Source: Lachnospiraceae bacterium
GTDB lineage: Bacteria > Bacillota > Clostridia > Lachnospirales > Lachnospiraceae
Length of the DNA stretch: 64,000 nt
NCBI GenBank assembly: GCA_910575255.1
Contig: CAJTEM010000001.1
Location: 179,110-243,109, forward strand
Direction: 5' to 3'
Below, in pieces: positions 1-59,148 of the stretch (position 1 is its first letter; each line of letters starts with the position of its first letter). The notes beneath the pieces are model-generated. The model was not told where the DNA came from, made no database searches, and saw only the letters and a list, made by a program, of their open reading frames with translations. Position numbers and translations under genes: made by a program.

Positions 1-143
1 ATTTTCGTTTCAACGCAAAACTCAGAAATTTAAGGACTTCTAAATCTCTGCAAAGTCAACATCCGCAGACCATTTTCCGCTGCGCCCTCCCCTTGTTCCA
101 AGGCGTACCTTCTGGAACCTCACCCCCCCCGTGAACAGTAACC
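1..143. repeat. Long-hairpin repeat, copy A (right half only, cut by window start)
   Basis: Bases 1-60 match the right arm of the complete copy at 32199 (shared blocks ATTTTCGTTTCAACGCAAAA and ACTTCTAAATC), and 61-104 form an outer arm ending in TTCCAAGGCG. The mate of this arm must lie upstream of the window, so the hairpin itself cannot be checked. The outer edge ends CCCCGTGAACAGTAAC, the reverse complement of the sequence flanking copy B at 8912. It lies about 200 bp upstream of an Rpn-type gene, as copy B does. The stretch from 144 to 341 shows nothing else beyond a probable promoter region and the AGGAGG ribosome binding site of the next gene. Confidence 0.75.
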
Positions 144-341
144 CCCGAAACAAAGCCGATGGCACAAAAAATAAAAAATCATTGTAATACCCATTTCCGG
201 ATGATATAATCATATCAAAGCAAAGATTTCTGCGGCCAGAGCGCCGGTTCTGCAGCAAAAGCTGCCTCTGAAAAGATTCTATTCTTTCTAAAATGAAATC
301 CTGCTTTTAAAACCCAGAAAAAATAAAAGCAGGAGGAGAAG

Positions 342-1395
342 ATGCGAAGAGAAGAACGCAGGATGGAATCTGCCAGGACAGTGAGTTCCGAGACAGAAAA
401 AGAAATTTCCACGAAAAATATTCCCGAAAAGGAAGCCTCAGAAATCGCCTATCAGAACAAAGACATAGCCAGCAAGATATTTGCGGAACAGCTAAAAGGA
501 AAAAGCTTCAACGTATACGGAGTGGAGACCGGCAAGATCAAGGCCGTGTTGCCCACCAATATTCCAGCCATAAAGGTAAACGAGCTCCGCCTGGATAATC
601 TGCTGGAATTAGAGGACGGAACGGTAGCTCTGGTGGATTATGAAAGCGAATACAAAAAAGAAAGCAAGGTAAAATACTTAAATTACCTCACCGGAATCGT
701 AAACCGATATGAAAGAAAAGGCAGAAGCTGCCCGGATCTGCGAATGATTGTGGTGTACACTGGAGATATCCGCAGGGAACAAGTATCAGAAAACTATGAT
801 GTAGGAGCGGTGACGGTAACCATAGAGCCGGCCTTTCTGTCCGAAATTGACGGAGAGGGGATATTAAAGCATCTGAAGAAAAAGGTGGAGAAAGGTGAAC
901 CATTAGATGACCAGGAGCAGATGGAACTGATCATTCTCCCCCTGTCATACAGGAGGCAAAAGGAAAAGAAAGAGAAGATTAGCGAGACCGTGGATCTGGC
1001 AGTAAAGCTTCAGGACAGAGAGCAGCAGCTTTTCGTTCTTGCCGGGATCCTTACATTCACGGACAAAATCATAGATGAGGAACATGCAAAGACCATAAGG
1101 GAGGGCGATTCAGATGACCAAGGTAGCCATGATATTTGAGAAGGAGAAGGAAGAAGCGGTAAAAAGGGAAAGAGAGAAAATGGAGCAGATTGCCAGGGAG
1201 GAGAGGGAGAGAATCCAGCAGGCCGCCAAAGAGAAAAGGCGGAAAGCACTGATGGCGGAAAAGAGAAAGATTGCCTTAAAAATGCTTGCGGATGGAGAAC
1301 TGTCGCCGGAAAAGATTGCTCAATATGCCGGAATAAATATAAAAACTGTCAAAAAACTTGCCGGACAGCAGAGCCGGGATATTCCCCTCCAATAG
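342..1395 (+). pseudogene. Rpn-type PD-(D/E)XK nuclease gene, frameshifted
   Basis: The first reading frame (342-1139) gives a 265-residue product whose core resembles the Rpn/PD-(D/E)XK family: a DGTVALVDYESEYKK segment (acidic catalytic-type residues near residues 93-101) followed by helices. The conserved family C-terminus (MTKVAMIFEKEKEEAVKRE...) is in the +1 frame from 1114. Removing one G from the GGG run at 1103-1105 joins them as KTIRE-AIQMTKVAMIF, which restores a continuous protein of about 350 residues ending at 1395. So the gene carries a one-base insertion, or is a site of frameshifting or sequencing error. The start is the ATG at 342 behind AGGAGGAG. Rpn proteins are nucleases linked to recombination and phage defence. 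Full-length activity is probably lost here. Confidence 0.8.
1114..1395 (+). CDS. C-terminal Rpn fragment, possible intragenic antitoxin (RpnS-like)
   Basis: A 93-residue frame begins at ATG 1114 with AAGGGAGGG eight bases upstream, a good Shine-Dalgarno placement inside the larger gene. The protein has a long charged helix rich in Lys, Glu and Arg (residues about 8-50). After it comes a helix-turn-helix-like tail (ALKMLADGELSPEKIAQYAG, then VKKLA), the usual end of Rpn proteins. In E. coli Rpn loci the C-terminal domain is also made separately from an internal start and blocks the full-length toxin. Here the frameshift leaves this part intact and translatable alone. Expression is inferred, not shown. 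Confidence 0.55.
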   Translation: MTKVAMIFEKEKEEAVKREREKMEQIAREERERIQQAAKEKRRKALMAEKRKIALKMLADGELSPEKIAQYAGINIKTVKKLAGQQSRDIPLQ

Positions 1396-1447
1396 GAAAT
1401 CGAAATGCCCCTGCCATACTTTACAAAAGGCGCAGTGTCATATATAC

Positions 1448-1474
1448 TAAAGTGGAAAAAGGATTGGGCGGTAA
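1448..1474 (+). promoter_or_regulatory. Possible sigma-28 promoter for bacteriohemerythrin
   Basis: TAAA, 15 bases, GGCGGTAA. The -35 is canonical for flagellar sigma-28, but the -10 differs from GCCGATAA at two positions. It sits 66 bp upstream of the hemerythrin start and uses the same spacing as the clearer sites elsewhere in the window. Confidence 0.35.
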
Positions 1475-1539
1475 CGACAGGTTACCGGAAATAATCAGTC
1501 CTATGAATTTGATAAAAGTTACAGGAGGCAGGACTTGTT

Positions 1540-2496
1540 ATGGAAAACATAGCATGGAGCGAAAAATTCAATATCGGTGTGGAGGTAGTGGACAAAGCCC
1601 ACGCCAAGCTTTTTCGGATTGTGAAGAAGATGACGGATATGGTGGAAAGTGGGGATACGAATGAGAATACATATAAAGAAGGGATCAAGTACCTGGAAGC
1701 CTATACCATGACGCATTTCGCGGAGGAAGAAGCCTATATGCGCTCCATTCGGTATAGTGAATATGCTGCTCACAAGCGTATCCACGACAATTTCAGGGAC
1801 AAAACCCTGGTTTCTTTAAAAAGAGATCTCGACCTGTCCGCTTATTCCTGTACAGCCGTACAGCGCTTTACAGGAGTCGTGAACAACTGGCTGGCAGAGC
1901 ATATTATGAAAGAGGACCAGGCGATCGTAGGGAAGGCCGGCACGCGGAAGAATTATGACATATCAGCGCAGATCCCGATCATATCCAGGGTTGTGAACCG
2001 GACTATGCTGGAAGTCTTTCAGATAGAGACAAAGCTTGCAAGCGCGAATTATAAGGGACAGAATATCGGCAAGGGTTTTTACAGCCGCCAGTTTTATGAT
2101 ACAGAGAAGGGAGTCAGGGTACAGTTCCTTCTTGGGGTGGAGGAACCTTTGTTTCTCAGAGGAGTCAACCGCATACCAGGAATGCAGATAACGCAGGGAG
2201 AAGAGCTGACAGAAGAATCCATCCTGCATATATTCGGAGAACTTTTTCAGGACGTGAGTAAACTGTTCCGGATCGAGACAGAGTATGAGTTTGGCAAAGA
2301 GAATCTGTTAACCAGAGACGGATTCCGAACGGAATTTATGAAGAATTATCCCTGCAGCCTGCTGTACACAACGAAAAGCGGGTATTTCATTTTCTGCTAC
2401 CGCAGCTGGCGCATCAAGCATCCCAAAGCCCAGGCCGGGACAGCAGAGGGGGAAAGGGCCGGCCAGGGACAGAAGGCTGGAAAAAAGGAAATGTGA
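1540..2496 (+). CDS. Bacteriohemerythrin with C-terminal CheX-like domain
   Basis: A 318-residue cytosolic protein. Residues 1-135 are a bacteriohemerythrin domain with all di-iron ligands visible: H21 (DKAHAKLF), H59 and E63 (MTHFAEEE), H78 and H82 (AHKRIHD), H121 and D126 (AEHIMKED). Such domains bind O2 at a non-heme di-iron centre and often serve in aerotaxis or O2 storage. Residues about 140-285 form a second alpha/beta domain that looks like the CheX/CheC phosphatase-type fold found in chemotaxis; this is a weak inference from overall pattern. The last 30 residues are Lys/Gly-rich and probably disordered. AGGAGG lies 11 bases before the ATG. A hairpin terminator separates it from the convergent dehydrogenase. 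Confidence 0.85.
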   Translation: MENIAWSEKFNIGVEVVDKAHAKLFRIVKKMTDMVESGDTNENTYKEGIKYLEAYTMTHFAEEEAYMRSIRYSEYAAHKRIHDNFRDKTLVSLKRDLDLSAYSCTAVQRFTGVVNNWLAEHIMKEDQAIVGKAGTRKNYDISAQIPIISRVVNRTMLEVFQIETKLASANYKGQNIGKGFYSRQFYDTEKGVRVQFLLGVEEPLFLRGVNRIPGMQITQGEELTEESILHIFGELFQDVSKLFRIETEYEFGKENLLTRDGFRTEFMKNYPCSLLYTTKSGYFIFCYRSWRIKHPKAQAGTAEGERAGQGQKAGKKEM

Positions 2497-2507
2497 AGAA
2501 CAGAGTA

Positions 2508-2542
2508 TCCGACAAAATGCGCCAGTGACGCATTTTGTCGGA
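2508..2542. terminator. Bidirectional hairpin between convergent genes
   Basis: A perfect 14-bp stem (TCCGACAAAATGCG and its complement) around a 7-base loop lies between the hemerythrin stop (2496) and the dehydrogenase stop (2579). The stem's own A/T run may serve as the U-tract, so this is probably a shared terminator. Confidence 0.6.
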
Positions 2543-2578
2543 TTTGAATATAAGGAGACAGCATTGACTGGCCGGATT

Positions 2579-3760
2579 CTACCGGTTTGCCTCACGATAG
2601 ATCTCGTAGATTCTCTTTACATCGAGAACATCAAAGGTTCCGATTGTTCTGGTCTGCTGGAAGGAACACCGATAGGCCAGTTCCCGCAGTACCTCATCCT
2701 TTTGGATACCGATGTCCGGATTCTCCCCGAAGCTGACAGGCATTCCAAGCCCGGCAAAGTATTTAACAGTGGACCGGATTCCGGCCATGGCCAGGTCATT
2801 CACCCCGGCACCATCCAATCCCCAGACATTTCTTGCATAGCGGGCAAAACGCTCCGGTCTGGCGTGGCAGACGGACAGTGCCCAGGAACCCCAGACCGTG
2901 GAAAGAGAGGCGCCGTGGGCAGTGCCGAACATGGCAGATAATTCATGGCCGAGCTGATGCACGGCAAAATCTCCGGGGCCGCCAAGGCCGGTCAGGCCAT
3001 TATGGGACAGGGAACCCGCCCACATCAGTTCACTCATGGCATCATAGTCATGAGAGTCTTTGACAGCAATGCGGCCTTTGGCGATGACAGTGCGAAGAAG
3101 CGCTTCTGCGATGGCATCGGTCAGCTCATTGTCCACCGGATTGAAATATCGATCCAGGGTGTGCATCATAATGTCAGTGACGCCGCAGGCAACCTGATAA
3201 ACAGGAAGCGTGTAAGTCAGCTCAGGATTCATGATGGCAAATCTGGGACGGTTCAGATCCGAGCTGAGGCCCCGTTTGCTTCCGGTGGCAGTACAGGTGA
3301 GGACTGCGGAGTTGCTGGTCTCGCTGCCAGCCGCCGGGATGGTGAGGATGGCTCCGGTTGGGAGGGCATGAGTGGCGGTCGCCTTGCGGCACCAGAAATC
3401 CCAGATATCGGCGGTGGGGTTGGCAGCGCCGATGGCAATAGCCTTGGCCGTGTCGATGACGGATCCGCCTCCCACCCCAAGAAGAAAGTCAGCCTGGAAT
3501 TCCAGAGCGGAACGAATCCCCTTTTTGGCATGTTCCAGTGTGGGATTGGGCTGTACCCCGCCGAATTCCTCACAGGCGAGTCCGGCATCGGCCAGAACCT
3601 GGCGGACCTGTCCTAAAAGCCCGCTGCGGATCACACTTCCGCCGCCGTATACCAGGAGAACGCGGCTGCCGTCATATTTGCGGACACATTCTGCAACTTT
3701 GTTTTGAGTATCCTTTCCGAAGATGACCTCGGTAGGGGAAAGATAGGTAAATGATTGCAT
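2579..3760 (-). CDS. Iron-containing alcohol dehydrogenase (butanol dehydrogenase type)
   Basis: A 393-residue group III (iron-activated) alcohol dehydrogenase of normal family length. It should reduce aldehydes to alcohols, or the reverse, with NAD(P)H in the cytosol. Seen: the dinucleotide-binding motif GGGSVIDTAKAIA near residue 97, the Asp metal ligand in CGVTDIMMHTLDRYF near 196, and His ligands in AVHQLGHELSAMFGTAHGAS near 266-281. Closest in pattern to NADPH-dependent BdhA/YqhD enzymes, though substrate preference cannot be read. ATG is preceded by AAGGAGG. It is monocistronic and divergent from the ABC exporter genes. Confidence 0.9.
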   Translation of the reverse strand: MQSFTYLSPTEVIFGKDTQNKVAECVRKYDGSRVLLVYGGGSVIRSGLLGQVRQVLADAGLACEEFGGVQPNPTLEHAKKGIRSALEFQADFLLGVGGGSVIDTAKAIAIGAANPTADIWDFWCRKATATHALPTGAILTIPAAGSETSNSAVLTCTATGSKRGLSSDLNRPRFAIMNPELTYTLPVYQVACGVTDIMMHTLDRYFNPVDNELTDAIAEALLRTVIAKGRIAVKDSHDYDAMSELMWAGSLSHNGLTGLGGPGDFAVHQLGHELSAMFGTAHGASLSTVWGSWALSVCHARPERFARYARNVWGLDGAGVNDLAMAGIRSTVKYFAGLGMPVSFGENPDIGIQKDEVLRELAYRCSFQQTRTIGTFDVLDVKRIYEIYREANR

Positions 3761-3775
3761 GATGAATTCCTCCTT

Positions 3776-3789
3776 GCTACGATTGTAGC
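3776..3789. promoter_or_regulatory. Short inverted repeat upstream of the dehydrogenase
   Basis: GCTAC-GATT-GTAGC lies 15 bp upstream of the dehydrogenase ATG and overlaps a plausible -10 (TATGCT/TACAAT on the minus strand). It could be an operator or a small leader hairpin. Confidence 0.25.
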
Positions 3790-3846
3790 ATAAACCATTC
3801 AGAGATACCAGAGAAAAAGCACGATTAACAGAAATGAGGCAGAGGA

Positions 3847-5736
3847 TTGAACAGAAAAGGCAGAAAGGCTAAATTAATTTTGCGCTATTTTCACGGTTCC
3901 CGGCGTTATTTTATATGCGCGGCCGCGGCATCACTGCTGACCACGGCGTTAAATGCCGTGACTCCTCAGATCTTCCGTTTCAGCATTGATCAGGTCCTGG
4001 GCGGGAACGAATATGGATTTTTGCGGGAGCGGCTCTGGATACCGGGTCTGGCCGTCGTGGGAGTGGCGGCCTTGTCTGGCATATCCATGTTTGTGAGTCG
4101 GATGTGTACGTCACGTGCCGGGGAGAATTTTGCAAAGAATATGAGAGATTCTTTGTTTGCTCATGTACAGAGACTGCCGATGAGTTGGCATGACAAAAAT
4201 CAGACCGGGGATATCATCCAGCGATGCACTTCGGACGTGGAGGTGATTCGGAATTTTGTGGTGACACAGCTTCTGGAGGTGTTCCGGACAGTATTTTTGA
4301 TAGGGATATCTTTTGCCATGATGTTTGGGATGAATCGAAAAATGTCATTGGTAGTGCTGCTGTTTGTGCCGGTGGTGGCAGGATATTCTGCCGTATTTTA
4401 CCGTCTGATTGCCAGGCGATTTACAAAAGCAGACGAGGCGGAGGGCGAGCTGTCTACCGTGGTACAGGAGAATGCGACCGGCGTGCGGGTGGTACGCGCC
4501 TTTGGGCGGGAGCACTTTGAGATGGAACGTTTCCGGGAAAAGAATGAAGCCTTTGCCAGAATGTGGATCCGTCTGGGAACGCTTTCGGGACTTTACTGGG
4601 GAGTCGGAGATCTGATCACAGGACTGCAGGTGGTGGCTGTGGCAGTGCTCGGAGCGGCAGAGGCAGTTCACGGTAATATGTCTGTGGGGGAATTTGTGGC
4701 CTTTGCCTCCTACAATACGGTGCTGGTATGGCCGGTTCGCGGTCTGGGAAGGATTCTTTCCGATATGAGTAAGGCCGGGGTATCCTTTGAACGGGTGGAT
4801 TATATGATTCAGGGAGAGGAAGAGCGGTATCAGCAATCATGCGTGGCGGGGGAAAAAGGACTGCCGCAGTGTATGGACATTACCTTTTCGCACGTATCCT
4901 TTGCGTATGAGAAAGGGAAGAAGGTATTGGATGATATTTCATTTTCGGTTTCTCAGGGACAGACCTTTGGTATCTTAGGAGGAACCGGCAGCGGGAAATC
5001 TACGATTGTACAGCTTCTGACCAGACTCTATGAGCTGGATGCAGAGGAGAATTCGGGCTGCATTGCCATCGGCGGTATCGATATCCGTGAGCTGCCGCTG
5101 GAATGGCTGCGTCAGAATGTCGGTATGGTGCTTCAGGAACCGTTTCTGTATTCGCGGACGATCCGTGAGAATATCGCAGCCTCTGCTCCGGAGGCTACGA
5201 TGGAAGAAATCCGGCAGGCAGCCCGGATCGCCTGTATCGATGAGGCAATCATGAATTTTCCGGACGGTTATGACACGATGGTCGGAGAGCGTGGGTTGAT
5301 ACTGTCCGGAGGCCAGCGGCAGCGGGTGGCGATTGCCCGGATGCTTTTGCAGAAGGCTCCGGTGATGGTCTTTGATGATTCTTTATCAGCAGTGGATTCT
5401 GAGACAGATTCCATGATTCGCAGGGCGTTGAAGGAACGGATAAAGGATACTGCTGTGATATTGATTTCCCATCGGATTACGACACTGATGGGAGCGGACA
5501 GGATTATGGTGTTAAGAGAGGGCCAGATGGAGGAGATGGGAACGCATGCGCAGCTGGTGCAAAGCCATGGAATCTATCAGCAGATTTATGAAATCCAGAT
5601 GAGCGGAGACGACCGCAGGACATTGGCAGACAGCACGGAAAAAAAGAAAAATGCCGGTCGGGCAGAGAATGCGCCGTCACGGCTGCCTGGCTCGTTGTCC
5701 GCGGAAATAAAGGAGGCAGCGGATGGCCGCATATGA
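3847..5736 (+). CDS. ABC exporter half-transporter, degenerate ATPase subunit
   Basis: A 629-residue type IV ABC exporter subunit: six membrane segments (residues about 15-310), then a nucleotide-binding domain. Walker A is GGTGSGKST and the signature LSGGQRQR is canonical. Walker B ends VMVFDD, with Asp in place of the catalytic Glu, so its own ATP site is expected to be non-hydrolytic. It starts at TTG (GAGG upstream). The next gene overlaps its last 14 bases and encodes the partner, so the pair should form a heterodimeric multidrug- or peptide-type exporter (BmrCD/TM287-288 style). The C-terminal 50 residues are a charged tail. Substrate is unknown. Confidence 0.9.
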   Translation: MNRKGRKAKLILRYFHGSRRYFICAAAASLLTTALNAVTPQIFRFSIDQVLGGNEYGFLRERLWIPGLAVVGVAALSGISMFVSRMCTSRAGENFAKNMRDSLFAHVQRLPMSWHDKNQTGDIIQRCTSDVEVIRNFVVTQLLEVFRTVFLIGISFAMMFGMNRKMSLVVLLFVPVVAGYSAVFYRLIARRFTKADEAEGELSTVVQENATGVRVVRAFGREHFEMERFREKNEAFARMWIRLGTLSGLYWGVGDLITGLQVVAVAVLGAAEAVHGNMSVGEFVAFASYNTVLVWPVRGLGRILSDMSKAGVSFERVDYMIQGEEERYQQSCVAGEKGLPQCMDITFSHVSFAYEKGKKVLDDISFSVSQGQTFGILGGTGSGKSTIVQLLTRLYELDAEENSGCIAIGGIDIRELPLEWLRQNVGMVLQEPFLYSRTIRENIAASAPEATMEEIRQAARIACIDEAIMNFPDGYDTMVGERGLILSGGQRQRVAIARMLLQKAPVMVFDDSLSAVDSETDSMIRRALKERIKDTAVILISHRITTLMGADRIMVLREGQMEEMGTHAQLVQSHGIYQQIYEIQMSGDDRRTLADSTEKKKNAGRAENAPSRLPGSLSAEIKEAADGRI

Positions 5737-7570: not shown

Positions 7571-7705
7571 AGTTTTCATGGCTTGCTTGTGCCCTGAATG
7601 AAGCGAGAGGAATGGGGACAAAGAGGAAAGGAAAGGCACCGGAGGGATAGGGCCGTGCAGCGATAAAAGGAACAGGTAAAAGCAGAAAAGAGGACAGAGA
7701 TAAGA

Positions 7706-8908
7706 ATGACAGCAGGAATGAAAAAGCTAATCATACAGGGAATCGGAATCACATGGCTTCTGGGAAGCCTGGCAGCCCTGGAAAGGGGAGGAGTTTTCCC
7801 GAAGAATTTCCAGGGGGAAGCGCCAGAGATTCGGAAAGATTTCCATATCCATGCACAAAATCCGCCGGACGGATTGACACTGACAGACGGAGGCTCCTAC
7901 TATACCTATCAGTGGGCCCTGAAAAACGTTGGTAATCTTCAGCGGATCTCAGAGGAGGGAGAGAGGAAAATCACAAACAGCGTAGCCGGCGTGGATATTG
8001 CGATAGAGCCGGCATGGACCCTATATGAGCAGAAGCCGGAGCGAAGAACAATCACGGTCGCGCTGATCGATACCGGGGCAGAGATCACCCATCCGGAGCT
8101 GCAGCATGCGATCTGGATCAATGAGGATGAGATCCCGGGCGACGGGATCGACAATGACGGGAACGGTTATGTGGATGATGTGAACGGATGGAATTTCCAT
8201 GCCCAAAATAATCAGCTATTCGTGGGAACCGAGGATGAGCACGGAACCCATGAGGCAGGAATCATTGCCGGCGCCTGGGACGGGAAAGGAATCACAGGGA
8301 TAGCGGACAGCAATTATGTAAAGATTATGGTATTAAAAGCTCTTGGCACGGAACAGGGGACAGGACTTTCCGATGGGGTGAAGCAGGCGATCCGCTATGC
8401 CGTGGACAATGGCGCGGATATCTGCAATCTGAGCATGGGCGCGGAGAATTATGACGAAGAGATGGAACAAATGATGCGGGAATCCCCGATGCTTTTTGTT
8501 GTTTCCGCAGGGAACGGAGACGGTCAGGGGAACGGATATGATATCGATGCCTCTCCGGTGTATCCGGCTGCCTATTCTGGAGAAAATATCATCACGGTTG
8601 CCAATATGATGTTTGACGGAAATCTGGATTCCAGCTCCAATTACGGGGCGTCCGGCGTGGATATCGCAGCGCCCGGAACCTACATTCTCAGCACAGTGCC
8701 CGGCGGCTATGGCTTTCTTAGCGGAACCTCGATGGCAGCGCCGATGGTGACCGGAGCGGCCGCTCTGCTTGCTTCCTGCCGCCCGGAACTGGGACCGGCT
8801 GACATCAAGCGTCTGATTCTGGATTCCGCGACCAAAAGGGACAGCCTGACAGGAAAATGCGCAACCGGCGGAATGCTGAATGTGCAGGGGGCGATGATGG
8901 CGGAGTAA
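7706..8908 (+). CDS. Subtilisin-like serine protease (S8 family), membrane-anchored or secreted
   Basis: A 400-residue S8 peptidase with the full triad: D122 (VALIDTGAEITHP), H179 (EHGTHEAG), S342 (GTSMAAP), and oxyanion N270 (SAGN). A hydrophobic segment at residues 8-24 looks like a signal peptide or anchor without an obvious lipobox. A DGIDNDGNGYVDDVNGWNF insert (about 147-164) is the Ca-binding-like loop common in this subfamily. The region before residue 90 may be a short prodomain. It follows the ABC genes by 135 bp and stops 17 bp before the long-hairpin element, suggesting that element inserted just past the gene. Target proteins are unknown. Confidence 0.9.
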   Translation: MTAGMKKLIIQGIGITWLLGSLAALERGGVFPKNFQGEAPEIRKDFHIHAQNPPDGLTLTDGGSYYTYQWALKNVGNLQRISEEGERKITNSVAGVDIAIEPAWTLYEQKPERRTITVALIDTGAEITHPELQHAIWINEDEIPGDGIDNDGNGYVDDVNGWNFHAQNNQLFVGTEDEHGTHEAGIIAGAWDGKGITGIADSNYVKIMVLKALGTEQGTGLSDGVKQAIRYAVDNGADICNLSMGAENYDEEMEQMMRESPMLFVVSAGNGDGQGNGYDIDASPVYPAAYSGENIITVANMMFDGNLDSSSNYGASGVDIAAPGTYILSTVPGGYGFLSGTSMAAPMVTGAAALLASCRPELGPADIKRLILDSATKRDSLTGKCATGGMLNVQGAMMAE

Positions 8909-8925
8909 GGGTTACTGTTCACGGG

Positions 8926-9234
8926 CAATGTCAGTAAGTTAAGGAATCGCGAAGCACAGCCAGGGAAACGGGGAGAGCAGCCATCAGAAATGGTTTGCGA
9001 ATTTTGACTTTGCAGAGATTTAGAAGTCCTTAAATTTCTGAGTTTTGCGTTGAAACGAAAATTCACACTGTCTGAGCGCAGCGAGTTTGTGAATTTTCGT
9101 TTCGTTTTTAGCAAAAATCGGAAATTTCAGGAATTCTTGATCTCGAAACCGGAAAAAGCAGCAAACCATTTCTGATGGCTGCTCTCCCCGTTTCCTTGGC
9201 GTACCTTTCAGAAACGCTTAACTAACTGACATTG
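8926..9234. repeat. Long-hairpin repeat, copy B (complete, with flanking duplication)
   Basis: Bases 8959-9200 fold into one imperfect hairpin. The outer 40-bp arms (8959-8998 with 9161-9200) pair except for one mismatch. The middle part pairs with bulges, and the inner arms AAAATTCACA/TGTGAATTTT flank a 20-base apex at 9068-9087. Outside this, CAATGTCAGTAAGTTAAG at 8926 is the inverse of the sequence ending at 9234, forming terminal inverted repeats. The 9-mer GTTCACGGG occurs directly on both sides (8917-8925 and 9235-9243), as expected for a target-site duplication. No protein is credibly encoded. The structure resembles a miniature inverted-repeat element. Confidence 0.8.
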
Positions 9235-9330
9235 GTTCACGGGGTGGGGTGAGGTTCCAAGGCTGAACATCCCGTTCTCTATTTTTTCCAGAGCGTACCT
9301 TCCGGAACCCCGCCCCGTGAAAAGAAACGA
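9235..9330. repeat. Short companion inverted repeat next to copy B
   Basis: GTTCACGGGGTGGGGTGAGGTTCC at its left is inverted as GGAACCCCGCCCCGTGAA at its right (9309-9326). The segments TTCCAAGGCTGAACAT and GCGTACCTTCCGGAACC match the outer edges of copies A, C and E. It looks like a core-less derivative of the same family, or the host element into which copy B inserted. The remaining bases to 9415 hold only the promoter region of the next gene. Confidence 0.5.
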
Positions 9331-9415
9331 GTAAGGAGAGGTGCCTTGTCCCACGAAGGCGGCAGGTTGCAAATATAGACTGGGAATGTTATAATTAATA
9401 AAAAAGGAGTCTTGA

Positions 9416-10306: not shown

Positions 10307-10387
10307 TGATGGGATTCCGGATTTTGGAGAGAAGGTAACCGTTCAAGAGTTATCTGAACTGTTACGAGAGAAATAGCATGGCAGAAG

Positions 10388-10454: not shown

Positions 10455-10559
10455 CGCTCCGCGGGGATGCGCACTCCGCGCAGAGGAAGATGGCTGCTGT
10501 CGCAGCCGCGCTCCGGCGCGAGAGTCCGGCTTGCCGGACTCTTTGTTCCAATACCTCTG

Positions 10560-32198: not shown

Positions 32199-32504
32199 CA
32201 ATGTTTAGTTAAACTTTGCCGAAAGGTACGCCTTGGAAAAAGAGGGGAGAGGCGCTCTGAAGTGGTCTGTTGTTTTTTCCGGTTTCGGGATCAAGAATTC
32301 CTAAAACCCCTGATTTTTGCTAAGAACGAAACGAAAATCCCCGAACTCGCTTCGCTCAGACAGCGGGGATTTTCGTTTCAACGCAAAACTCAGGGATTTA
32401 AGGACTTCTAAATCCCTGCAAAGTCAAAAACAGTAGACCACTTCGGAGCGCCTCTCCCCTCTTTTTCCAAGGCTGAATATTCTCAGAGTTAAACCAAATG
32501 ATGT
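32199..32504. repeat. Long-hairpin repeat, copy C (complete, opposite orientation to B)
   Basis: Bases 32230-32473 form a 244-base hairpin. The outer arms (32230-32268 with 32435-32473) pair at 38 of 39 positions. The inner arms AAAATCCCCG/CGGGGATTTT enclose the apex AACTCGCTTCGCTCAGACAG at 32344-32363. Outer-arm sequence is unrelated to that of B, D or E, yet complementarity holds. Degenerate terminal repeats (CAATGTTTAGTTAAAC, and its rough inverse near 32486-32504) bracket it. The stretch 32505-32697 holds nothing recognised apart from an AT-rich region before the flagellin promoter. Confidence 0.85.
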
Positions 32505-49618: not shown

Positions 49619-49639
49619 GTCGGTTAAAGGGTTCTGAAA

Positions 49640-49662
49640 AAGCGGGCATAAAGCCCGCTTTT
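49640..49662. terminator. Terminator between receptor and YprB-like gene
   Basis: AAGCGGGC, 5-base loop, GCCCGCTT, then TT. A-rich on the other side, so it may serve both convergent genes. Confidence 0.85.
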
Positions 49663-50757: not shown

Positions 50758-50910
50758 GTTCGAACTCCTTTTACTGAAAAAGATTATGGAATGATTATAG
50801 CGGGGCGGAAACAGGAAGTCAACAAAAAGTAAGACAGCCCTTGATACTTGCACTTGTTATTGTGATATGTTATGATGGGCAAAGACAGTTTGAATGGGAG
50901 GAGTATGTCA

Positions 50911-51534: not shown

Positions 51535-51577
51535 AGAAAAGCAGCAGGAATGGAGCATGGGATAGTTGGAGTGAAGA

Positions 51578-52576: not shown

Positions 52577-52595
52577 AGGGGCAGGAAAGGAGAGC

Positions 52596-53123
52596 ATGTC
52601 GGCAGCTATGCTGCAGGGAAAGAAACTAAAAGAAAAAGCCAGGAAAGATCAGAGGTCAGAGAACGTGAATCAGAAGAACCAGATGGAAGTTTTGATTGAT
52701 GGAAAGATATATAAGTTAAGCGGGGCTGAGGAGGAGATGTATCTGCAAAAGGTTGCCGCGTATCTGAATGGAAAGATTGGAAAGCTGAGGGATGAGGAAG
52801 GGTTTTCACGCTTGAGTTCCGATTATCAGGCAGTACTTTTGCAGTTGAATATCGCAGATGACTATTTCAAGGAAGAGGAGCGGGCAAACCGGCTCGAGAA
52901 CGAGAAATCAGAGCTGGAAAAGGAGATCTACAGTCTGAAGCATGAATTGATTACCACTCAGCTGAAGATGGAAAAGCTGGAAAAGGAACCGTTGGAGAAA
53001 GAACGGCCGGAACTGTCGGGACAGCCAGAGAAGATTGCGGAGAAGCAGAGCCGTCCGAAAAGAGAGCGGACAACTGCCAGTCAGAAAAGGGCGGATACGG
53101 AGAACAGGGCGATGCGCCTTTGA
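52596..53123 (+). CDS. zapA: Cell division protein ZapA
   Basis: A ZapA domain at MEVLIDGKIYKLSGAEEEMY, preceded by about 30 charged residues if the ATG at 52596 is used. GTG 52665, nine bases after AGAGG, would give a more typical 152-residue protein. A coiled coil follows (NRLENEKSELEKEIYSLKHE), then a Lys/Glu/Arg-rich tail. ZapA bundles FtsZ filaments at midcell. It lies directly after ruvB and its stop overlaps the U32 gene region, an order common in Clostridia. Confidence 0.82.
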   Translation: MSAAMLQGKKLKEKARKDQRSENVNQKNQMEVLIDGKIYKLSGAEEEMYLQKVAAYLNGKIGKLRDEEGFSRLSSDYQAVLLQLNIADDYFKEEERANRLENEKSELEKEIYSLKHELITTQLKMEKLEKEPLEKERPELSGQPEKIAEKQSRPKRERTTASQKRADTENRAMRL

Positions 53124-53140
53124 GCGGAGGAGGAAGGGGA

Positions 53141-55651
53141 TTGAGACCGCAGGTAGAGATTTTGGCTCCGGCAGGATCAACGGAAAGTATGGTTGCGGCG
53201 ATTAATGCCGGTGCGGATGCCGTATATATGGGCGGAAGTCGTTTCGGCGCCCGGGCTTATGCAGATAATCCGGCGGAGGATGGATTTTTGCAGGCGATTG
53301 ATTATGTGCATCTGCATGGCCGCAGGCTGTATATGACAGTGAATACGTTGGTGAAGGAAGAAGAGATGGAGCAGCTTCCGGATTTTCTGGATCCCTATTA
53401 CCGGAGAGGGCTGGATGCGGCAATCGTGCAGGATCTGGGGGTGCTGTCACTGATCCGGGAGCGTTTTCCGAAACTTCCGGTGCATATCAGTACACAGGCG
53501 ACGGTTACGGGGCGCTGGTCGGCCAGGCTGTTTAAGGAGCTGGGGGCTGCAAGAGTGGTGACGGCCAGAGAGCTGTCTCTGGAGGAGATTGCCGGGATTC
53601 GGGATGAGGTGGATCTGGAGATTGAGAGCTTTGTCCACGGGGCTTTGTGTTATTGCTATTCGGGCCAATGTCTGCTCAGCAGCCTGATCGGCGGCCGCAG
53701 CGGAAACCGTGGGCGCTGTGCGCAGCCGTGCCGTCTTCCCTATACTGTGGAAGAAGCAGGTACAGGGCGGCATCCGGGCCGGAAAAAGGCTCGCCAGTCT
53801 GATGTGGGCAGGAAGAACGGCCACGCGGACGGAGAATATCTCCTGAACCTGAAGGATCTGTGCACGCTGGATCTTTTGCCGGATATTGTGGAGGCAGGAG
53901 TCTTTTCGCTCAAGATAGAAGGAAGGATGAAGAGTCCCCGCTATACGGCAGGTGTGGTGAGCATATACCGTAAGTATGCGGACCAGTATCTGGAGAAAGG
54001 CCGGGACGGCTATCGGGTAGATCCGGCAGATAAACAGATGCTTCTGGAGCTGTTTGACCGCGGAGGCTTTACAGATGGCTATTACCGACAGCAGAATGGC
54101 AGAAGGATGCTTTCTTTGGGAAAAAGGCCAGGTTTCCGGGAGGTGGATCAGGAGTTATATGAGTATCTGGATCAGAAATATGTAAATGCGAAATTACAGG
54201 AGCCGGTGGATGCAGTTCTGACGGTACGGGAAGGCGAGACGATGTCCCTGACGTTGCATATGTCCGGAAACAGTGGGAAAGAGCCTGCGTTTGGAGTAAC
54301 CGGAGGCGTGGTGCAGAAAGCGCAGAATCAGCCAATGACAGAGGAGCGTCTGCGCAGACAGATGAATAAGACAGGCGAAAGCCCGTTTTTCTTCCGGCAG
54401 CTGCGGGTGGAGCTGAAAGGAGCCTGCTTTGTTCCGGTACAGGAGTTAAATGACCTGCGCCGGCGGGGACTGGAGGAATTGGAGCGGAGAATTCTGGAGG
54501 GGTACCGCAGGGAGGTGCCGCGGGAGGCATCCGGGAAGCGGGAGTCTGGCAGTGCGGAATCCGGGAAACAGGAGCCTGGCAGCGCGGGGTCCGGGAAGCA
54601 AGGGCCTGGCAGCGCGGAGTCCGGGAAGCAAGGGCCTGGCAGCGCAGAGTCCGGGAAGCAAGGGAATGGCAGCGCGGAGTCCGGGAAGCAAGGGCATGGC
54701 AGCGCGGAGTCCGGGAAGCAAGGGCATGGCAGCGCGGAGTCCGGGAAGCAAGGGCATGGCAGCGCGGAACCTGGGAAGCGGGAGCATGACGGCGCGGAGT
54801 CCGAAAGCATCGGGATAGGTGGCACATGGGAAACAGGGGAAATAAAGCTGCACGCTTCTCTGGAAGATCCGGGAGGGCTGGCAGTAGTGGCTGCACATCC
54901 GGATATCTCTGAGATCTATCTGGACTGCTGTGGCTTTTCTCACAGGGACTGGCAGTCTGCGGTCAGAGCCTGCCATGAGGCAGGAAAGAAGTGCGCATTG
55001 ATTTTGCCGCATATTTTTCGGAAAAAGGCAGAACAATATTTCAGGGAACACAGGGAGGAACTGAAGGACTCAGGGTTTGACGAACTGGTTCTGCGTTCCC
55101 TGGAGGAGATCGTATTTCTGAGAGAGCAGGGGATAGAACTGCCGATGGTATTGGATGCGAATCTCTACGGGATGAACCAAAGAGCCTGCGAAGTGATGAA
55201 AAAAGCGGGGGCAGCAAGGCTGACCTTGCCTCTGGAGCTGAACCGACAGGAGCTTGAAAGACTGGGATGCCAGGGGAAGGAACTGGTGGGATATGGACAT
55301 TTGCCCGCCATGGTATCGGCACAGTGTGTCCGACGTACCCTGACAGGCTGCATCAAAGAACCAGAGGTGCTGTTTTTGAGGGATCGCACCGGAAAAAGGC
55401 TTCCGGTGAAGAATCACTGCCGGTTCTGTTACAATACCGTATATAATCCGGATCCCCTGTCTCTTCTGGGACTGGAGAGGCAGGTGAGACAGCTTGCACC
55501 TTCGGTGCTGCGTCTGGCCTTTACCATTGAGGGCAGGCAAACGATGCAGCAGGTGCTGGATGCGTACGGCGATCATTTCCGGAGAGGAAAGAATGATACG
55601 GTACCTGCGGGAGAATTTACCCGGGGACATTTTAAGCGTGGTGTGGAGTAG
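53141..55651 (+). CDS. U32-family protein (RlhA-like RNA hydroxylase/peptidase family) with repeat insert
   Basis: About 836 residues, starting at TTG 53141 (LRPQVEILAPAGSTESMV) behind GGAGGAGG. The U32 core spans about 1-310 with the signature IESFVHGALCYCYSGQCLLS and the following CAQPCR, the cysteines that hold an iron-sulfur cluster in RlhA/TrhP enzymes acting in RNA hydroxylation. A second half (about 350-470 and 560-830) matches the DUF3656-type part, ending NHCRFCYNTVYNPDPLSL. Between them, residues about 470-550 are a decapeptide repeat (GSAESGKQGH type) not seen in typical family members. Molecular role is assigned by family only. Confidence 0.85.
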   Translation: MRPQVEILAPAGSTESMVAAINAGADAVYMGGSRFGARAYADNPAEDGFLQAIDYVHLHGRRLYMTVNTLVKEEEMEQLPDFLDPYYRRGLDAAIVQDLGVLSLIRERFPKLPVHISTQATVTGRWSARLFKELGAARVVTARELSLEEIAGIRDEVDLEIESFVHGALCYCYSGQCLLSSLIGGRSGNRGRCAQPCRLPYTVEEAGTGRHPGRKKARQSDVGRKNGHADGEYLLNLKDLCTLDLLPDIVEAGVFSLKIEGRMKSPRYTAGVVSIYRKYADQYLEKGRDGYRVDPADKQMLLELFDRGGFTDGYYRQQNGRRMLSLGKRPGFREVDQELYEYLDQKYVNAKLQEPVDAVLTVREGETMSLTLHMSGNSGKEPAFGVTGGVVQKAQNQPMTEERLRRQMNKTGESPFFFRQLRVELKGACFVPVQELNDLRRRGLEELERRILEGYRREVPREASGKRESGSAESGKQEPGSAGSGKQGPGSAESGKQGPGSAESGKQGNGSAESGKQGHGSAESGKQGHGSAESGKQGHGSAEPGKREHDGAESESIGIGGTWETGEIKLHASLEDPGGLAVVAAHPDISEIYLDCCGFSHRDWQSAVRACHEAGKKCALILPHIFRKKAEQYFREHREELKDSGFDELVLRSLEEIVFLREQGIELPMVLDANLYGMNQRACEVMKKAGAARLTLPLELNRQELERLGCQGKELVGYGHLPAMVSAQCVRRTLTGCIKEPEVLFLRDRTGKRLPVKNHCRFCYNTVYNPDPLSLLGLERQVRQLAPSVLRLAFTIEGRQTMQQVLDAYGDHFRRGKNDTVPAGEFTRGHFKRGVE
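54548..54787. repeat. 30-bp tandem repeat, eight units, in frame
   Basis: The unit is GGCAGCGCGGAGTCCGGGAA followed by GCAAGGGCAT, with small differences at its last bases. It encodes the decapeptide repeat in the U32-family protein. All units keep frame. The partly related 54788-54817 looks like a ninth decayed unit. Confidence 0.95.
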
Positions 55652-55683
55652 AACCTGCTTCATTTCAGACAGACAGGGGAAAT

Positions 55684-57012
55684 ATGATTAATGTAATGAT
55701 TGAGGTATCAAAGTATCTGATGATACTGTTGATTGCCGTTTATACGTATCTGAATTTCAGCTATTTTCGCTTTCATGAGGAGCGGAAGCAGAAAAGTGTA
55801 TGCAGGAAACAGAATGCGGCAATGTTTCTGCTGCATTTTGTGGCGAATCTGATTCTGTACCTGAAATCAGAGGATGAACGGGTGATGCTGTTCTATCTGG
55901 CGCAGATGGTATTCCTGGCTGCTTATATCGGGCTGTACCAGATGTTTTACCGCAATCTGACCCGGATTCTGGTCAATAATATGTGCATGCTTCTGTGTGT
56001 GGGCTGGATCGTATTGACAAGGCTTTCCTTTGAGAAGGCAGTGCGGCAGTTTATCATTGTGGCAGTGGCGGCACTGGTAACCTGGATCATTCCGCTTATT
56101 ATGGATCGGGTATGGCAGTTGTCGAGGATTCCCTGGGTGTATGGAACCCTGGGACTGGCCCTGCTGGCGGTAGTGTGGATGGTGGGCAATAACAGCTATG
56201 GAGCCCAGCTTTCTATCAGCATGGGCAGTTTTTCCCTGCAGCCGTCGGAGTTTGTCAAGATCAGCTTTGTATTTTTTGTTGCCACGATGTTTTATCGTTC
56301 TACAGACTGGATTTCTGTTGCAGTGACGACAGCAGTGGCGGCAGCACATGTACTGGTACTGGTGCTGTCGAGGGATCTCGGCAGTGCCCTGATCTTCTTT
56401 GTGACCTATCTGGTTATGCTGTTTGTGGCAACGGGAAGCTGGCTATACTTTCTGACGGGGATTCTGGGCGGGTGCGGCGCAGCTGTGCTGGCTTATCGAT
56501 GGTTTGCCCATGTGAGAGTCCGGGTGTCTGCCTGGAAAAATCCCTGGGCAGATATCGATAACCGTGGCTATCAGATCACGCAGTCCCTGTTCGCGATCGG
56601 GACCGGAGGATGGTTTGGCATGGGACTTTACCAGGGAATGCCTTATAAGATTCCCGTGGTGGAAAAAGATTTTGTGTTTGCGGCGATTTCCGAGGAGCTG
56701 GGCGGGATATTCGCGCTCTGTGTGCTGCTGATCTGCCTGGGATGTTTTTTGCAGTTCATGATGGTGGCAGTGCGGATGCAGGCCAGCTTTTATAAGCTGA
56801 TTGCTGTCGGACTGGGAATGGAATATCTGATTCAGGTATTTCTTACTGTGGGGGGAGTGATCAAATTTATTCCATCCACAGGAGTAACCCTGCCTCTGGT
56901 CAGCTATGGGGGAAGCTCGGTGCTTAGTACTTTCATTCTGTTTGGAGTGATTCAGGGACTATACATCCTGAAGAAGAATGATGAGGAGGACTATGAAGAA
57001 GACGAAGCCTGA
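55684..57012 (+). CDS. SEDS peptidoglycan polymerase (FtsW/RodA family)
   Basis: A 442-residue polytopic membrane protein with about ten helices. SEDS hallmarks: GSFSLQPSEFVKISF, SRDLGSALIFF (catalytic-type Asp), and GVTLPLVSYGGSSVL near the end. SEDS proteins polymerise glycan from lipid II together with a class B PBP, and the next gene is exactly such a PBP, overlapping by about 20 bases. The N-terminus has two extra helices compared with RodA. It could serve elongation, division or sporulation; FtsW versus RodA cannot be decided from sequence alone. Confidence 0.9.
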   Translation: MINVMIEVSKYLMILLIAVYTYLNFSYFRFHEERKQKSVCRKQNAAMFLLHFVANLILYLKSEDERVMLFYLAQMVFLAAYIGLYQMFYRNLTRILVNNMCMLLCVGWIVLTRLSFEKAVRQFIIVAVAALVTWIIPLIMDRVWQLSRIPWVYGTLGLALLAVVWMVGNNSYGAQLSISMGSFSLQPSEFVKISFVFFVATMFYRSTDWISVAVTTAVAAAHVLVLVLSRDLGSALIFFVTYLVMLFVATGSWLYFLTGILGGCGAAVLAYRWFAHVRVRVSAWKNPWADIDNRGYQITQSLFAIGTGGWFGMGLYQGMPYKIPVVEKDFVFAAISEELGGIFALCVLLICLGCFLQFMMVAVRMQASFYKLIAVGLGMEYLIQVFLTVGGVIKFIPSTGVTLPLVSYGGSSVLSTFILFGVIQGLYILKKNDEEDYEEDEA

Positions 57013-58420
57013 TTCCCATACCAACAGGAATATTCTGCTGATTACGTATCTGATGGTGGGGCTGTTTATCAGTATGATCGGCTATTTTGGATATTTCCTG
57101 CAGGTGCGGGGAGAAACCGTGATCAACAATTCGTATAATGCACGTCTGGATCGTTTTTCAGATCGGATTATCCGGGGAGAGCTGCTGAGTCATGACGGCC
57201 GGATATTGGCCAGGACTGAGGCGGATGAGGATGGGAGCGAGCGGCGTGTGTATCCTTACGGCCCTCTTTTTGCCCACAGTGTCGGATATTCGGATCACGG
57301 AAAGACGGGGCTGGAGGCACTGGCGAATTTTTATCTCCTGTCTTCTCACATGAATCTGATCGAGCAGACAGTCAATGAATTCTCGGGAGTGAAAAATATC
57401 GGTGACAATGTTATTACTACATTGGATGTGGATCTGCAGCAGACGGCATCGGATGCGCTGGGAGGAAGGCGGGGAGCCGTGATTGTCATGGAGCCGGATA
57501 CCGGGAAGATACTGGCGATGATATCCCGGCCGGAGTATGATCCCAATACGCTGGGAGCAGACTGGGATTTCCTGATTTCCGGAGAGAATACGGAGGCACA
57601 GCTTTTAAACCGGTCCACACAGGGACTGTATCCTCCGGGGTCGACCTTTAAGATTCTGACGATACTGGAATATATCCGCGAGCACCCGGATACCTGGCGG
57701 GAGTATACCTTTGACTGTGACGGAATTTATGAATGTGGGGACTATACGATCTCCTGTTATCATGGAAATGTTCACGGGCATCAGACACTGGAGCAGGCAT
57801 TTGCCAATTCCTGCAATGGAGCTTTCGCGGCTCTGGGGCAGGAATTGGATGCAGGCGCCATGCATGATCTGGCAGAGCAGCTTCTTTTCAACCAGGAGCT
57901 TCCGCTCTCACTTGCCTACAGCAAGGGTTCTTTTACAATGAATACCGGAGCCGATACCTGGGAGATCCTTCAGACCTCCATCGGGCAGGGCAACACTCAG
58001 ATCACTCCCATGCACAATGCTATGATCACAGCTGCCATTGCCAACGGAGGGATCCTTATGAAGCCTTATCTTCTGGAACGGGTGGAGAGTTCCGCAGGGG
58101 AGGAAGTGAAGCAGTTTCTGCCGGAATCGGCCGGCAGCCTGATGACTGCTGACGAGGCCGAGGCCCTGTCTGGGCTGATGCGTCTGGTGGTCACAGAGGG
58201 CACCGGCTCTGCTGTACGCACCGATGCCTACAGCGTCGCAGGTAAGACAGGTTCTGCCGAATTTGAAACCGGGCGCGAGACGCATGCCTGGTTCACGGGC
58301 TTTGCGCCTGCAGAGAATCCCCGTCTGGCAGTCACGGTAGTGGTGGAGGAGGCCGGATCCGGAGGACAGGTTGCCGCCCCCATTGCCCGCAGCATTTTCG
58401 ACCGGTATTTTTCCCGGTGA
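56993..58420 (+). CDS. Class B penicillin-binding protein (transpeptidase)
   Basis: About 475 residues, starting at ATG 56993 within the end of the SEDS gene, behind AGGAGG (short spacing). One membrane anchor (about 15-37), a short pedestal, then a transpeptidase domain: the nucleophile Ser is in PPGSTFK, SxN is ANSCNGAF, and KTG is GKTGSAEF. This is the short PBP type that pairs with SEDS proteins. Transcription probably ends in the hairpin region starting 21 bp after the stop. Confidence 0.92.
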   Translation: MKKTKPDSHTNRNILLITYLMVGLFISMIGYFGYFLQVRGETVINNSYNARLDRFSDRIIRGELLSHDGRILARTEADEDGSERRVYPYGPLFAHSVGYSDHGKTGLEALANFYLLSSHMNLIEQTVNEFSGVKNIGDNVITTLDVDLQQTASDALGGRRGAVIVMEPDTGKILAMISRPEYDPNTLGADWDFLISGENTEAQLLNRSTQGLYPPGSTFKILTILEYIREHPDTWREYTFDCDGIYECGDYTISCYHGNVHGHQTLEQAFANSCNGAFAALGQELDAGAMHDLAEQLLFNQELPLSLAYSKGSFTMNTGADTWEILQTSIGQGNTQITPMHNAMITAAIANGGILMKPYLLERVESSAGEEVKQFLPESAGSLMTADEAEALSGLMRLVVTEGTGSAVRTDAYSVAGKTGSAEFETGRETHAWFTGFAPAENPRLAVTVVVEEAGSGGQVAAPIARSIFDRYFSR

Positions 58421-58440
58421 GATAATGTTGTGAGAGGTAC

Positions 58441-58736
58441 GCCATGGGAAAAGGGAGCGCGGCGGTCAGAACAGGTCTGCGGATATCCGCTCCGGAAAAA
58501 GGGTTCCCCGGATCTCGGGTTTCGGATGCGGAAACTCTAAGCTTGCAGAAATCTGCTAAGAGCAGGAACAAAAATACAGAACTCGCTACGCTCAGACAGC
58601 TGTATTTTTGTTCCTAACGCAGATTCCTGCGAGCTAAGAGTTTCTACGCATCCTGCAAACGCAATCCGGGGAACCCTTTTTCCGGGGCGGATATCCGCAG
58701 ACCCGTTCTGACCGCCGTGCTCCCTTTTCCCATGGC
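58441..58736. repeat. Long-hairpin repeat, copy D (most diverged, longest stem)
   Basis: A 296-base hairpin in which the outer 71-bp arms pair at 68 positions (58441-58511 with 58666-58736). The inner arms GGAACAAAAATACAG and CTGTATTTTTGTTCC flank the apex AACTCGCTACGCTCAGACAG (58580-58599). Both arms and inner stem differ completely from copies B, C and E. Only the apex and the outer TACGCC/ATGGCTGAGTATTCTC edges are shared. It begins 21 bp after the PBP stop. Bases 58737-58904 hold family edge sequence (CTAAGCTTAATGACATGG) and no gene. Confidence 0.85.
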
Positions 58737-58904
58737 TGAGTATTCTCGGTGCTAAGCTTAATGACATGGTTTACGAATTCTTTGCAAACATGTTACTTTT
58801 TTCAGAGTTGATATGTGTCGGCTACAAAAAAGTCCCCATGAAAAGCAAGGGTAATTATTATTGTTCACACCCGATGTCATTCCGTTCAGTATTATGAATA
58901 TTCA

Positions 58905-59148
58905 GCCATGGAACAAGGGGAGGGAGGCATCCCGGAATGGTCGGTTGCTTTTGACTTTGCAGAGATTTAGAAGTCCTTAAATTCCCGAGTTTTGCGTTGA
59001 AACGAAAATTCACACTGTCTGAGCGAAGCGAGTTTGTGAATTTTCGTTTCGCTTTTAGCAAAAATCGGGAATTTTAGGAATTCTTAATCTCGAAACCGGA
59101 AAAAGCAACCGACCATTCCGGGATGCCTCCCTCCCCTTGTTCCATGGC
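58905..59148. repeat. Long-hairpin repeat, copy E
   Basis: A 244-base hairpin in the same orientation as copy B. The outer 48 bases of each arm pair without a mismatch. The middle is imperfect in the same places as in B and C. The apex CTGTCTGAGCGAAGCGAGTT is at 59015-59034. The edge after 59148 (GTACCTTCCGGAACC) is shared with copy A and 9302-9316. The interval to 59316 otherwise holds only the NUDIX gene's promoter region. Confidence 0.88.

Follow-up and report, generated by a model that had tools for sequence, protein, structure and literature searches.

Why does a family of long hairpins keep one constant apex on arms that differ from copy to copy and yet pair almost perfectly within each copy? 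The question is raised by a 64,000-nucleotide stretch of the genome of a Lachnospiraceae bacterium (GenBank assembly GCA_910575255.1, contig CAJTEM010000001.1, positions 179,110 to 243,109 of the forward strand), hereafter the window, in which a first-pass annotation made from the sequence alone had described four complete hairpins and one half, and had offered two causes, a selected DNA or RNA hairpin or arms rewritten by template switching. Analysis of this genome, of its genus and of other phyla revealed that the hairpins are a large, dispersed, genome-wide family. They are probably copies of a non-autonomous mobile repeat with a folded core, inserted by a DDE-type enzyme acting in trans, with outer arms copied from one another and a tip module that is old and patchily spread.

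Hairpins of the window and dispersal of the family

The four complete hairpins announced for the window were all recovered at their places, and are given here with the half copy and the associated repeats, including those of a miniature inverted-repeat transposable element (MITE).

1..142, minus strand: half copy (partial single arm of an element), with the foot GGCGTACC at 102-109 and the terminal repeat GTGAACAGTAAC at 131-142
8903..8910, no strand: left copy of an 8-bp target-site duplication, GAGTAAGG, which includes the stop codon of a frame ending at 8908
8911..9328, plus strand: host MITE, 418 bp with its insert included, terminal repeats GTTACTGTTCAC (8911-8922) and GTGAAAAGAAAC (9317-9328)
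8917..8925 (left) and 9235-9243 (right), no strand: 9-bp target-site duplication of the inner unit, GTTCACGGG
8926..9234, plus strand: copy A, a 309-bp hairpin unit inside the host MITE, terminal repeats CAATGTCA and TGACATTG, main stem 8959-9200
9068..9087, plus strand: apex of copy A, CTGTCTGAGCGCAGCGAGTT
9329..9336, no strand: right copy of the 8-bp target-site duplication, GAGTAAGG
32230..32473, minus strand: copy C, a hairpin 244 bases long whose inner stem has the form AAAATCCCCG/CGGGGATTTT, with its apex at 32344-32363
58441..58736, minus strand: copy D, second subtype, a hairpin 296 bases long with the inner form CAAAAATACAG/CTGTATTTTTG and its apex at 58580-58599; it faces copy B head-to-head
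58905..59148, plus strand: copy B, a 244-base hairpin of the first subtype, apex 59015-59034, followed by GTACCTTCCGGAACCCC

The regions around the four hairpins have folding energies of -176 (A), -163 (C), -239 (D) and -175 kcal/mol (B), with z values against dinucleotide shuffles of -16.2, -15.0, -29.2 and -20.1, and none of 100 shuffles folded as well as the real region for any of them. The folding that had been predicted is therefore well supported, as is the constancy of the apex, CTGTCTGAGCGNAGCGAGTT, which is exact in all four complete copies. An N immediately precedes position 1 on the contig and the remainder of the half copy is absent, so its truncation may be an assembly artefact. 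The DNA lying before this N, upstream of the window start (L332), resembles by eye the end of a DDE transposase gene.

With up to two mismatches allowed, the apex is matched 147 times across the 5.14 Mb of the window's genome (G000), for 5 with the reversed-pattern control, and 99 copies of this genome were aligned on the apex and examined. Within the genus, 10 of the 24 genomes, this one among them, contain it in very unequal numbers: three genomes have 144, 66 and 20 matches, and each of the remaining 21 has between 0 and 4. The first-pass annotation had made its interpretation depend on related genomes holding more copies; such copies exist, and other phyla have matches as well. Head-to-head pairs are frequent, at 285-435 bp from each other (11 pairs among the matches listed for the own genome). 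No preferred orientation relative to flanking genes appeared in tandem contexts (11 same and 15 opposite among 56 classed copies); gene calls followed a simple open reading frame rule, and 44 of 100 copies, having no called gene on one side, were left unclassed. Several contigs of G000 and of the related genome G013 end inside hairpins (e.g. L044, L084, L085, L301, L309), and the true copy numbers are possibly higher because assemblies break at these structures. One site is occupied in two genomes, L016 (G000) and L075 (G019), with flanks 97-98% identical, by different hairpins in opposite orientation, the left end GTAACAGTTCAGAAGGCAATGTCAGT being nearly the same in both.

Architecture of the hairpin

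The units are about 240-340 bases long and share a common plan. Outward from the tip, a 16-pair inner stem is followed by an internal loop (GCGT.. opposite ..TTTTAGC), a middle stem, a second internal loop and an outer stem of about 40-70 pairs, which commonly ends in GCC/GGC, with GTACC just beyond the 3' foot. Stems traced beyond the second loop measure 196-376 bases, and the foot at the stem base of Lachnospiraceae copies is GGCGTACC. The alignment used here and below gathers 62 copies of the first subtype, out of 70 whose flanks are complete; the 8 excluded bear side hairpins. Within it, the middle stem is interrupted by single mismatches at fixed places, which confirms the fixed imperfections noticed in the window, while TGACTTTGCAG in the second internal loop is invariant and faces CGAAACCGGA, every base of which is invariant or at least 90% conserved. 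The second subtype, to which copy D belongs, follows the same plan with different stems. The inner stems were said to switch together between the two arms, and the three forms (AAAATTCACA, AAAATCCCCG and that of copy D) were all retrieved.

A survey of 104 copies, sister-genome loci included, also showed that 8 own-genome copies bear in their 3' arm a further small hairpin, located at the inner internal loop in 5 of them and at a middle-stem mismatch in 3. A copy of genome G019 (L075) has both of these side hairpins.

Signatures of mobility

Terminal inverted repeats delimit a part of the family. The ends CAATGTCA occur on both sides in 8 of 23 copies of G013 as well as in own-genome copies, and the ends GTTACTKTTCAY in 8 of the 99 copies of G000; altogether about a third of the 99 have matching terminal repeats. 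Target-site duplications, counted only for copies with both terminal repeats, accompany these ends. They measure 7-8 bp in 5 of 8 single-apex units with GTTACTKTTCAY ends (1 of 56 in a cross-paired control), and 9-10 bp in single-apex units with CAATGTCA ends, where G013 shows them in 3 of 8 units against 0 of 56 in the control and G000 in 9 of 30 against 57 of 870, this last control being raised because the usual target, CCCGTGAAM, itself belongs to a repeat. Moreover, 14 of 21 stretches bounded by GTTACTGTTCAC-like terminal inverted repeats (up to two mismatches per end, apex present or not) show a 7-8-bp duplication with at most one mismatch. Copy A illustrates a nested insertion, the 309-bp unit with its duplication GTTCACGGG lying within the larger MITE at 8911-9328, which has its own duplication GAGTAAGG. 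At L049 (333-476) and L087 (676-819 and 907-1101) stand small apex-free elements, 144-195 bp long, whose ends are GTTACTGTTCAC-like; both L087 elements are flanked by 8-bp duplications with one mismatch.

No plausible gene was identified inside the units examined, and the frames between neighbouring copies resemble host genes by eye. The units look mobile and non-coding. The terminal ends do not belong to the conserved core, because the copies of the sister genome G004 have neither type and the pattern GTTACTKTTCAYNG is absent from G004 and found only twice in G013.

Contrasted evolution of core and outer arms

A statistical test of covariation, called for by the first-pass annotation, gave a result far beyond chance. 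Standard pairs make up 97.5% of the 5,745 pair cells of the 62 aligned copies; shuffling lowers this to 85.0%, and a shift of one column to 54%. Both sides have changed in 64 of 93 pairs (34 in shuffles), and the two measures exceed all 500 shuffles and every slid version.

The two parts of the stem differ in the nature of these changes. Over the 47 pairs of the outer arms the mismatches are symmetric (34 G·T and 41 A·C, p = 0.49) and the double changes comprise 36 types of transversion and 32 of transition; a second count, made by arm alignment, gave 28 G·T and 22 A·C (the loop motif was missing from 3 of the 99 copies, and the outer arm had zero length in 12 of the 96 that have it). Between copies whose outer arms are at least 90% alike, 54 of 104 double changes are transversions, which cannot arise through one G·T step. 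Template switching has been reported to create matched multi-base changes in the arms of hairpins in RNA genes (PMC8794818). The core, by contrast, with its 46 middle and inner pairs, contains 146 G·T for 15 A·C cells, and the double changes of the middle stem are 8 transitions and 1 transversion. When only distinct contexts are counted, the excess of G·T is found in the cross-phylum copies presented below (78 vs 45, p = 0.004) and in the 45-base arms of the own genome (37 vs 17, p = 0.009), with 6 vs 3 in Ralstonia.

We read these patterns as two processes: the core would be maintained in the form of a folded strand whose polarity is fixed, and the outer arms would be re-copied from one another at the DNA level. 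Each of the causes first proposed, selection of the hairpin and template switching, thereby gains support for one part only, the core and the outer arms respectively. Several results weigh against so clean a division. Of the 146 G·T cells of the core, 85 come from two columns where T·G is the most frequent pair (61 vs 15 remaining without them), and by column the excess, partly inherited, falls to 22 vs 11 (p = 0.08), so that its direction is firmer than its size. The double changes of the inner stem are mixed (4 transversions, 3 transitions), and the distinct-context test on 110-base arms is not significant (91 vs 70, p = 0.12). Finally, copies at least 90% identical differ by 91 changes confined to a single arm, almost as many as the 104 that affect both arms; change of one arm without the other, named by the first-pass annotation as a sign that it was wrong, is thus observed in part.

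The same annotation considered the outer arms of different copies as unrelated. This was overstated for the own genome, where their mean identity is 0.654 (0.486 shuffled) and they form related subfamilies, and is nearly true of G004, with 0.574 between copies (0.516 +/- 0.05 shuffled) and a within-copy arm match of 0.951 by local alignment.

The tip in other genomes and phyla

An exact scan of genome contigs for the tip returned at least 111 stretches, when about 2 would be expected by chance according to our estimate (19 specified bases, 257 billion bases, both strands). Names were available for 80 of these loci and phyla were assigned from the record names. They include Ralstonia, Variovorax, Polaromonas, Noviherbaspirillum, Sphingobacterium and Parabacteroides, as well as Nitrospira, Desulfosarcina, Thioalkalivibrio, Selenomonas and Lachnospiraceae, so that an exact 20-base tip is common to Bacillota, Pseudomonadota, Bacteroidota and Nitrospirota. 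At many named loci the tip stands at the top of an imperfect hairpin whose arms differ between lineages. In 80 of 115 copies, the two arms pair better with each other than in every one of 115 controls with swapped arms, and the other 35 do not exceed the best control. In many of 29 loci folded singly, the inner stem was seen by eye to comprise about 9-10 pairs and to give way to a short A-rich bulge on the 5' side. Furthermore, 43 of the 115 copies have a second short hairpin 3' of the main one, often like GTTACTTTTGGG..CCAAAAGTAAC and beginning 60-81 bases past the tip in 35 of them; such a hairpin lies on the 5' side in 11 copies, those with fewer than 120 bases on that side having been skipped.

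The arrangement of these copies varies among lineages. The Ralstonia unit is directional, with a similar sequence at both ends, and Noviherbaspirillum has tail-to-tail pairs about 464 bp apart. Where head-to-head pairs are wider, as in Ralstonia, Parabacteroides and others, the genes lying inside them look ordinary by eye. In Noviherbaspirillum G034 (L264, L268, L272 and others), variable arrays of GTTGCC/GTTGCA-type hexamers flank hairpin pairs on both sides. Similar hairpin triplets occur twice in Parabacteroides G029 (L252), about 12 kb apart, around frames resembling polysaccharide-export genes by eye. In Desulfosarcina (L249 / L150), three hairpins in the same orientation stand 1.3-1.4 kb apart among small frames that include a HigBA-like pair.

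The tip is patchily distributed and usually multi-copy. Through 23 such loci, 23 genomes were reached; at up to one mismatch each contains 2-72 matches, with 72 in Noviherbaspirillum suwonense, and more than 45 are present in three of these genomes (the reversed control gave 0). Only copy numbers are informative there because these genomes were chosen for having the apex. In an even sample of the window's phylum, the tip was retrieved in 14 of 398 genomes, own included, and 11 of the 13 others have at least two copies, the reversed control matching in the window's genome only. A viral or plasmid home was considered and rejected: viral contigs gave 2 stretches, copy B had one partial phage match (54% covered, 75.7% identity) and no match among plasmids, and the Ralstonia unit matched partially (13-24% covered) three plasmid records typed as non-mobilizable.

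Search for a mobilizing enzyme

An IS66-like insertion sequence of about 1.8 kb was identified on contig C37 of the own genome (L107, 652-2467), with 18-base inverted repeats TTGTAACAGTTCAGCCTT at both ends and an apparent 8-bp duplication, AATTTTTT, seen by eye. Its inverted repeat loosely resembles GTTACTGTTCAC and its duplication has the same length as that of the host MITE, but its ends are similar, not identical, to those of the hairpin units. Such an element could provide a transposase in trans, and is proposed as a lead only. A 31-base palindrome, GTAACCGTTCAAGAGTTATCTGAACTGTTAC, at position 10335 of the window (plus strand) has ends resembling the IS66-like terminal repeat GTAACAGTTCAG, and a similar one is present in L062.

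A transposase of the Y1 (RAYT) type was also tried as the mover, and is unsupported. Y1 matches were present in 13 of the 23 apex-bearing genomes and in none of the other 10, and the apex, at up to four mismatches, was found within about 1.5 kb of none of the 30 Y1 loci examined (out of 42 matches), nor at three Y1 loci of the own genome. The possibility of a gene travelling with the hairpins in other phyla was likewise rejected. Among the 1,408 frames listed near the 111 loci, no mobility gene recurs beside the copies, the largest cluster covering 8 loci, and of 20 cluster representatives 13 match Pfam families, none of them of a mobility gene (ABC transporters, a tRNA synthetase, an AMP-binding enzyme, regulators, MnmE, RlmN, MFS), the 7 others having no Pfam match and being mostly frames that run across hairpins.

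Nature of the family

The explanation that we consider likely, a non-autonomous mobile repeat with a folded core, can be detailed as follows. The hairpins would be copies of a non-coding repeat whose core, composed of the fixed 19-20-base tip, the inner stem, the middle stem with its fixed mismatches and the two loops of fixed sequence, would be conserved as a folded strand of one polarity, presumably through recognition by a protein. In the own genome and in G013, a DDE enzyme working in trans would insert the units by a reaction of the cut-and-paste type; this class is suggested by the target-site duplications, of 9-10 bp with CAATGTCA ends and, in the own genome, 7-8 bp with GTTACTKTTCAY ends. 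The outer arms would be held complementary mainly by DNA-level copying between arms, either replication template switching or arm conversion; one arm being copied from the other, outer arms could diverge between copies and retain their pairing. The core itself may be an old module, patchily spread and joined to different ends in different lineages, as is suggested by the similar hairpins of other phyla that bear this tip. The interpretation given by the first-pass annotation is partly supported; it knew of no named element that fits, and had missed both the mobility signatures, which fit a MITE in the own genome, and the cross-phylum apex.

This explanation has to face several unfavourable observations. 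Only 30 of the 99 own-genome copies bear CAATGTCA ends on both sides, neither end type exists in the 17 copies of G004, and most units with CAATGTCA ends have no recognisable duplication (21 of 30 in G000, 5 of 8 in G013). An autonomous partner with either end was not found with Y1 and IS66 profiles, terminal-repeat patterns and the regions examined, other transposase families lying outside these searches and the assembly breaking at repeats, and no transposase flanked by the terminal repeats appeared in those regions. None of the 20 cluster representatives checked near apex copies elsewhere matched a mobility gene.

Part of the data would also fit ordinary MITEs, in which the arms are alike through quasipalindrome correction only, the hairpin is unselected and the core is conserved by recent descent. 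Terminal repeats and duplications, the symmetric mismatches and transversional double changes of the outer arms and the template-switch precedent (PMC8794818) all agree with them. This is nevertheless rather improbable in view of the G·T excess of the core, of the recurrence of this tip in other phyla, where it caps hairpins whose arms are unrelated, and of the middle-stem mismatches persisting at fixed places in 62 copies, since correction would erase them. Some features would fit a structured non-coding RNA or a cis RNA element, its transcribed hairpin binding a protein or being cut by an RNase, and its mobility being incidental. One strand tolerates G·T, across phyla as well; internal loops and mismatches are fixed; side hairpins occupy two fixed places of the 3' arm; and the second hairpin of cross-phylum copies prefers the 3' side (43 of 115, for 11 on the 5' side). 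However, copies show no orientation bias relative to flanking genes, two Selenomonas copies run opposite to the surrounding hypothetical genes, the outer arms lack strand-specific pairing and no Rfam family corresponds to the element, for which an RNA function of this kind appears unlikely to be the main explanation.

The hairpins could alternatively be elements akin to repetitive extragenic palindromes (REPs) or bacterial interspersed mosaic elements (BIMEs), moved by a tyrosine (HUH, RAYT-type) transposase that would recognise the hairpin in single-stranded DNA. The extragenic, dispersed hairpins in head-to-head or tail-to-tail pairs, the tolerance of one strand to G·T and the short fixed foot at the stem base of Lachnospiraceae copies (GGTACGCC on one strand) recall such elements. 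The stems are far longer than those of REPs, though, Y1 matches are missing from 10 of the 23 genomes and none of the Y1 loci examined has an apex beside it, and the duplications of G000 and G013 are of a sort that Y1 elements are not known to make; we regard this origin as very doubtful. Least credible, and close to negligible, are integron-like recombination sites, with hairpins serving as attC-type sites in gene-cassette arrays. The attC sites of integrons are recognised by their fold, with a free arm sequence, and a site defined by structure on unrelated arms is indeed found here; the Desulfosarcina copies of same orientation, 1.1-1.4 kb apart with one group beside a HigBA-like frame pair (gene names by eye), are also suggestive of cassettes. 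Elsewhere, copies are single or in opposed pairs between ordinary genes and not generally in arrays, their tip is fixed, and no integrase was found among the 20 frames checked from clusters near the 111 loci, the genomes not having been searched with an integrase profile.

Relation to known systems

The family is nearest in kind to MITEs and REPs, and is set apart by a fixed tip on free arms across phyla. Like Type II MITEs (PMC10969869), it is non-coding and multi-copy, with nested insertions and, in a subset, terminal inverted repeats and target-site duplications. Unlike them, it has outer arms rewritten in pairs, a core of fixed structure and a tip recurring across phyla, the G004 copies are devoid of the ends and no related autonomous element emerged from the searches made. 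REPs are 20-40 bp long, one end bearing in most cases a GTAG or CGTC motif (PMC3733652); REP/BIME systems with RAYT share with the present family extragenic hairpins, often in pairs of opposite orientation, in many copies and several phyla (PMC3733652, PMC6006769). The hairpins described here, of 196-376 bases with a fixed tip, are no such short palindromes, their foot is GGCGTACC and the Y1 loci examined lack the apex. Matched multi-base changes in both stem arms are shared with template-switch hairpins (PMC8794818), which concern RNA genes, whereas here the outer arms of a mobile element would be affected and the fixed core mismatches would escape.

Rfam gave no match at the gathering score in the window, and in 18 of the 111 listed cross-phylum loci only the bacterial small signal recognition particle RNA, in L132, ending 169 bases before the apex. 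Loose E-value matches in two stretches, mostly to microRNA-type hairpin models and far below gathering scores, were discarded. No description of the family was found in the literature, subscription papers and supplements being outside the search, nor were the tip letters found as text, which papers seldom print. On these literature and Rfam searches rests our view of the family as undescribed.

Significance

The exact 20-base tip, shared across phyla on differing arms, suggests an old and widely present reader of the tip. A broader proposal, which we make tentatively and to which we accord a limited chance, is a phylum-spanning class, defined by its structure and its fixed 19-base tip and distinct from MITEs, REPs and integron cassettes, in which a widespread protein, reading the tip and loops of a single folded strand, would move or copy the element, the outer arms would serve as a rewritten handle and different transposon ends would be borrowed in each host. 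Finding the tip reader would give access to a new recombination or RNA-binding system. At the level of genomes, the hairpins account for some assembly breaks, several contigs ending inside elements. The family also constitutes a natural assay of long-stem pairing, since strand-symmetric arm copying in the outer arms can be compared with compensatory evolution in the core within one molecule, and it bears on how DNA stems stay paired, a question raised so far for RNA genes (PMC8794818).

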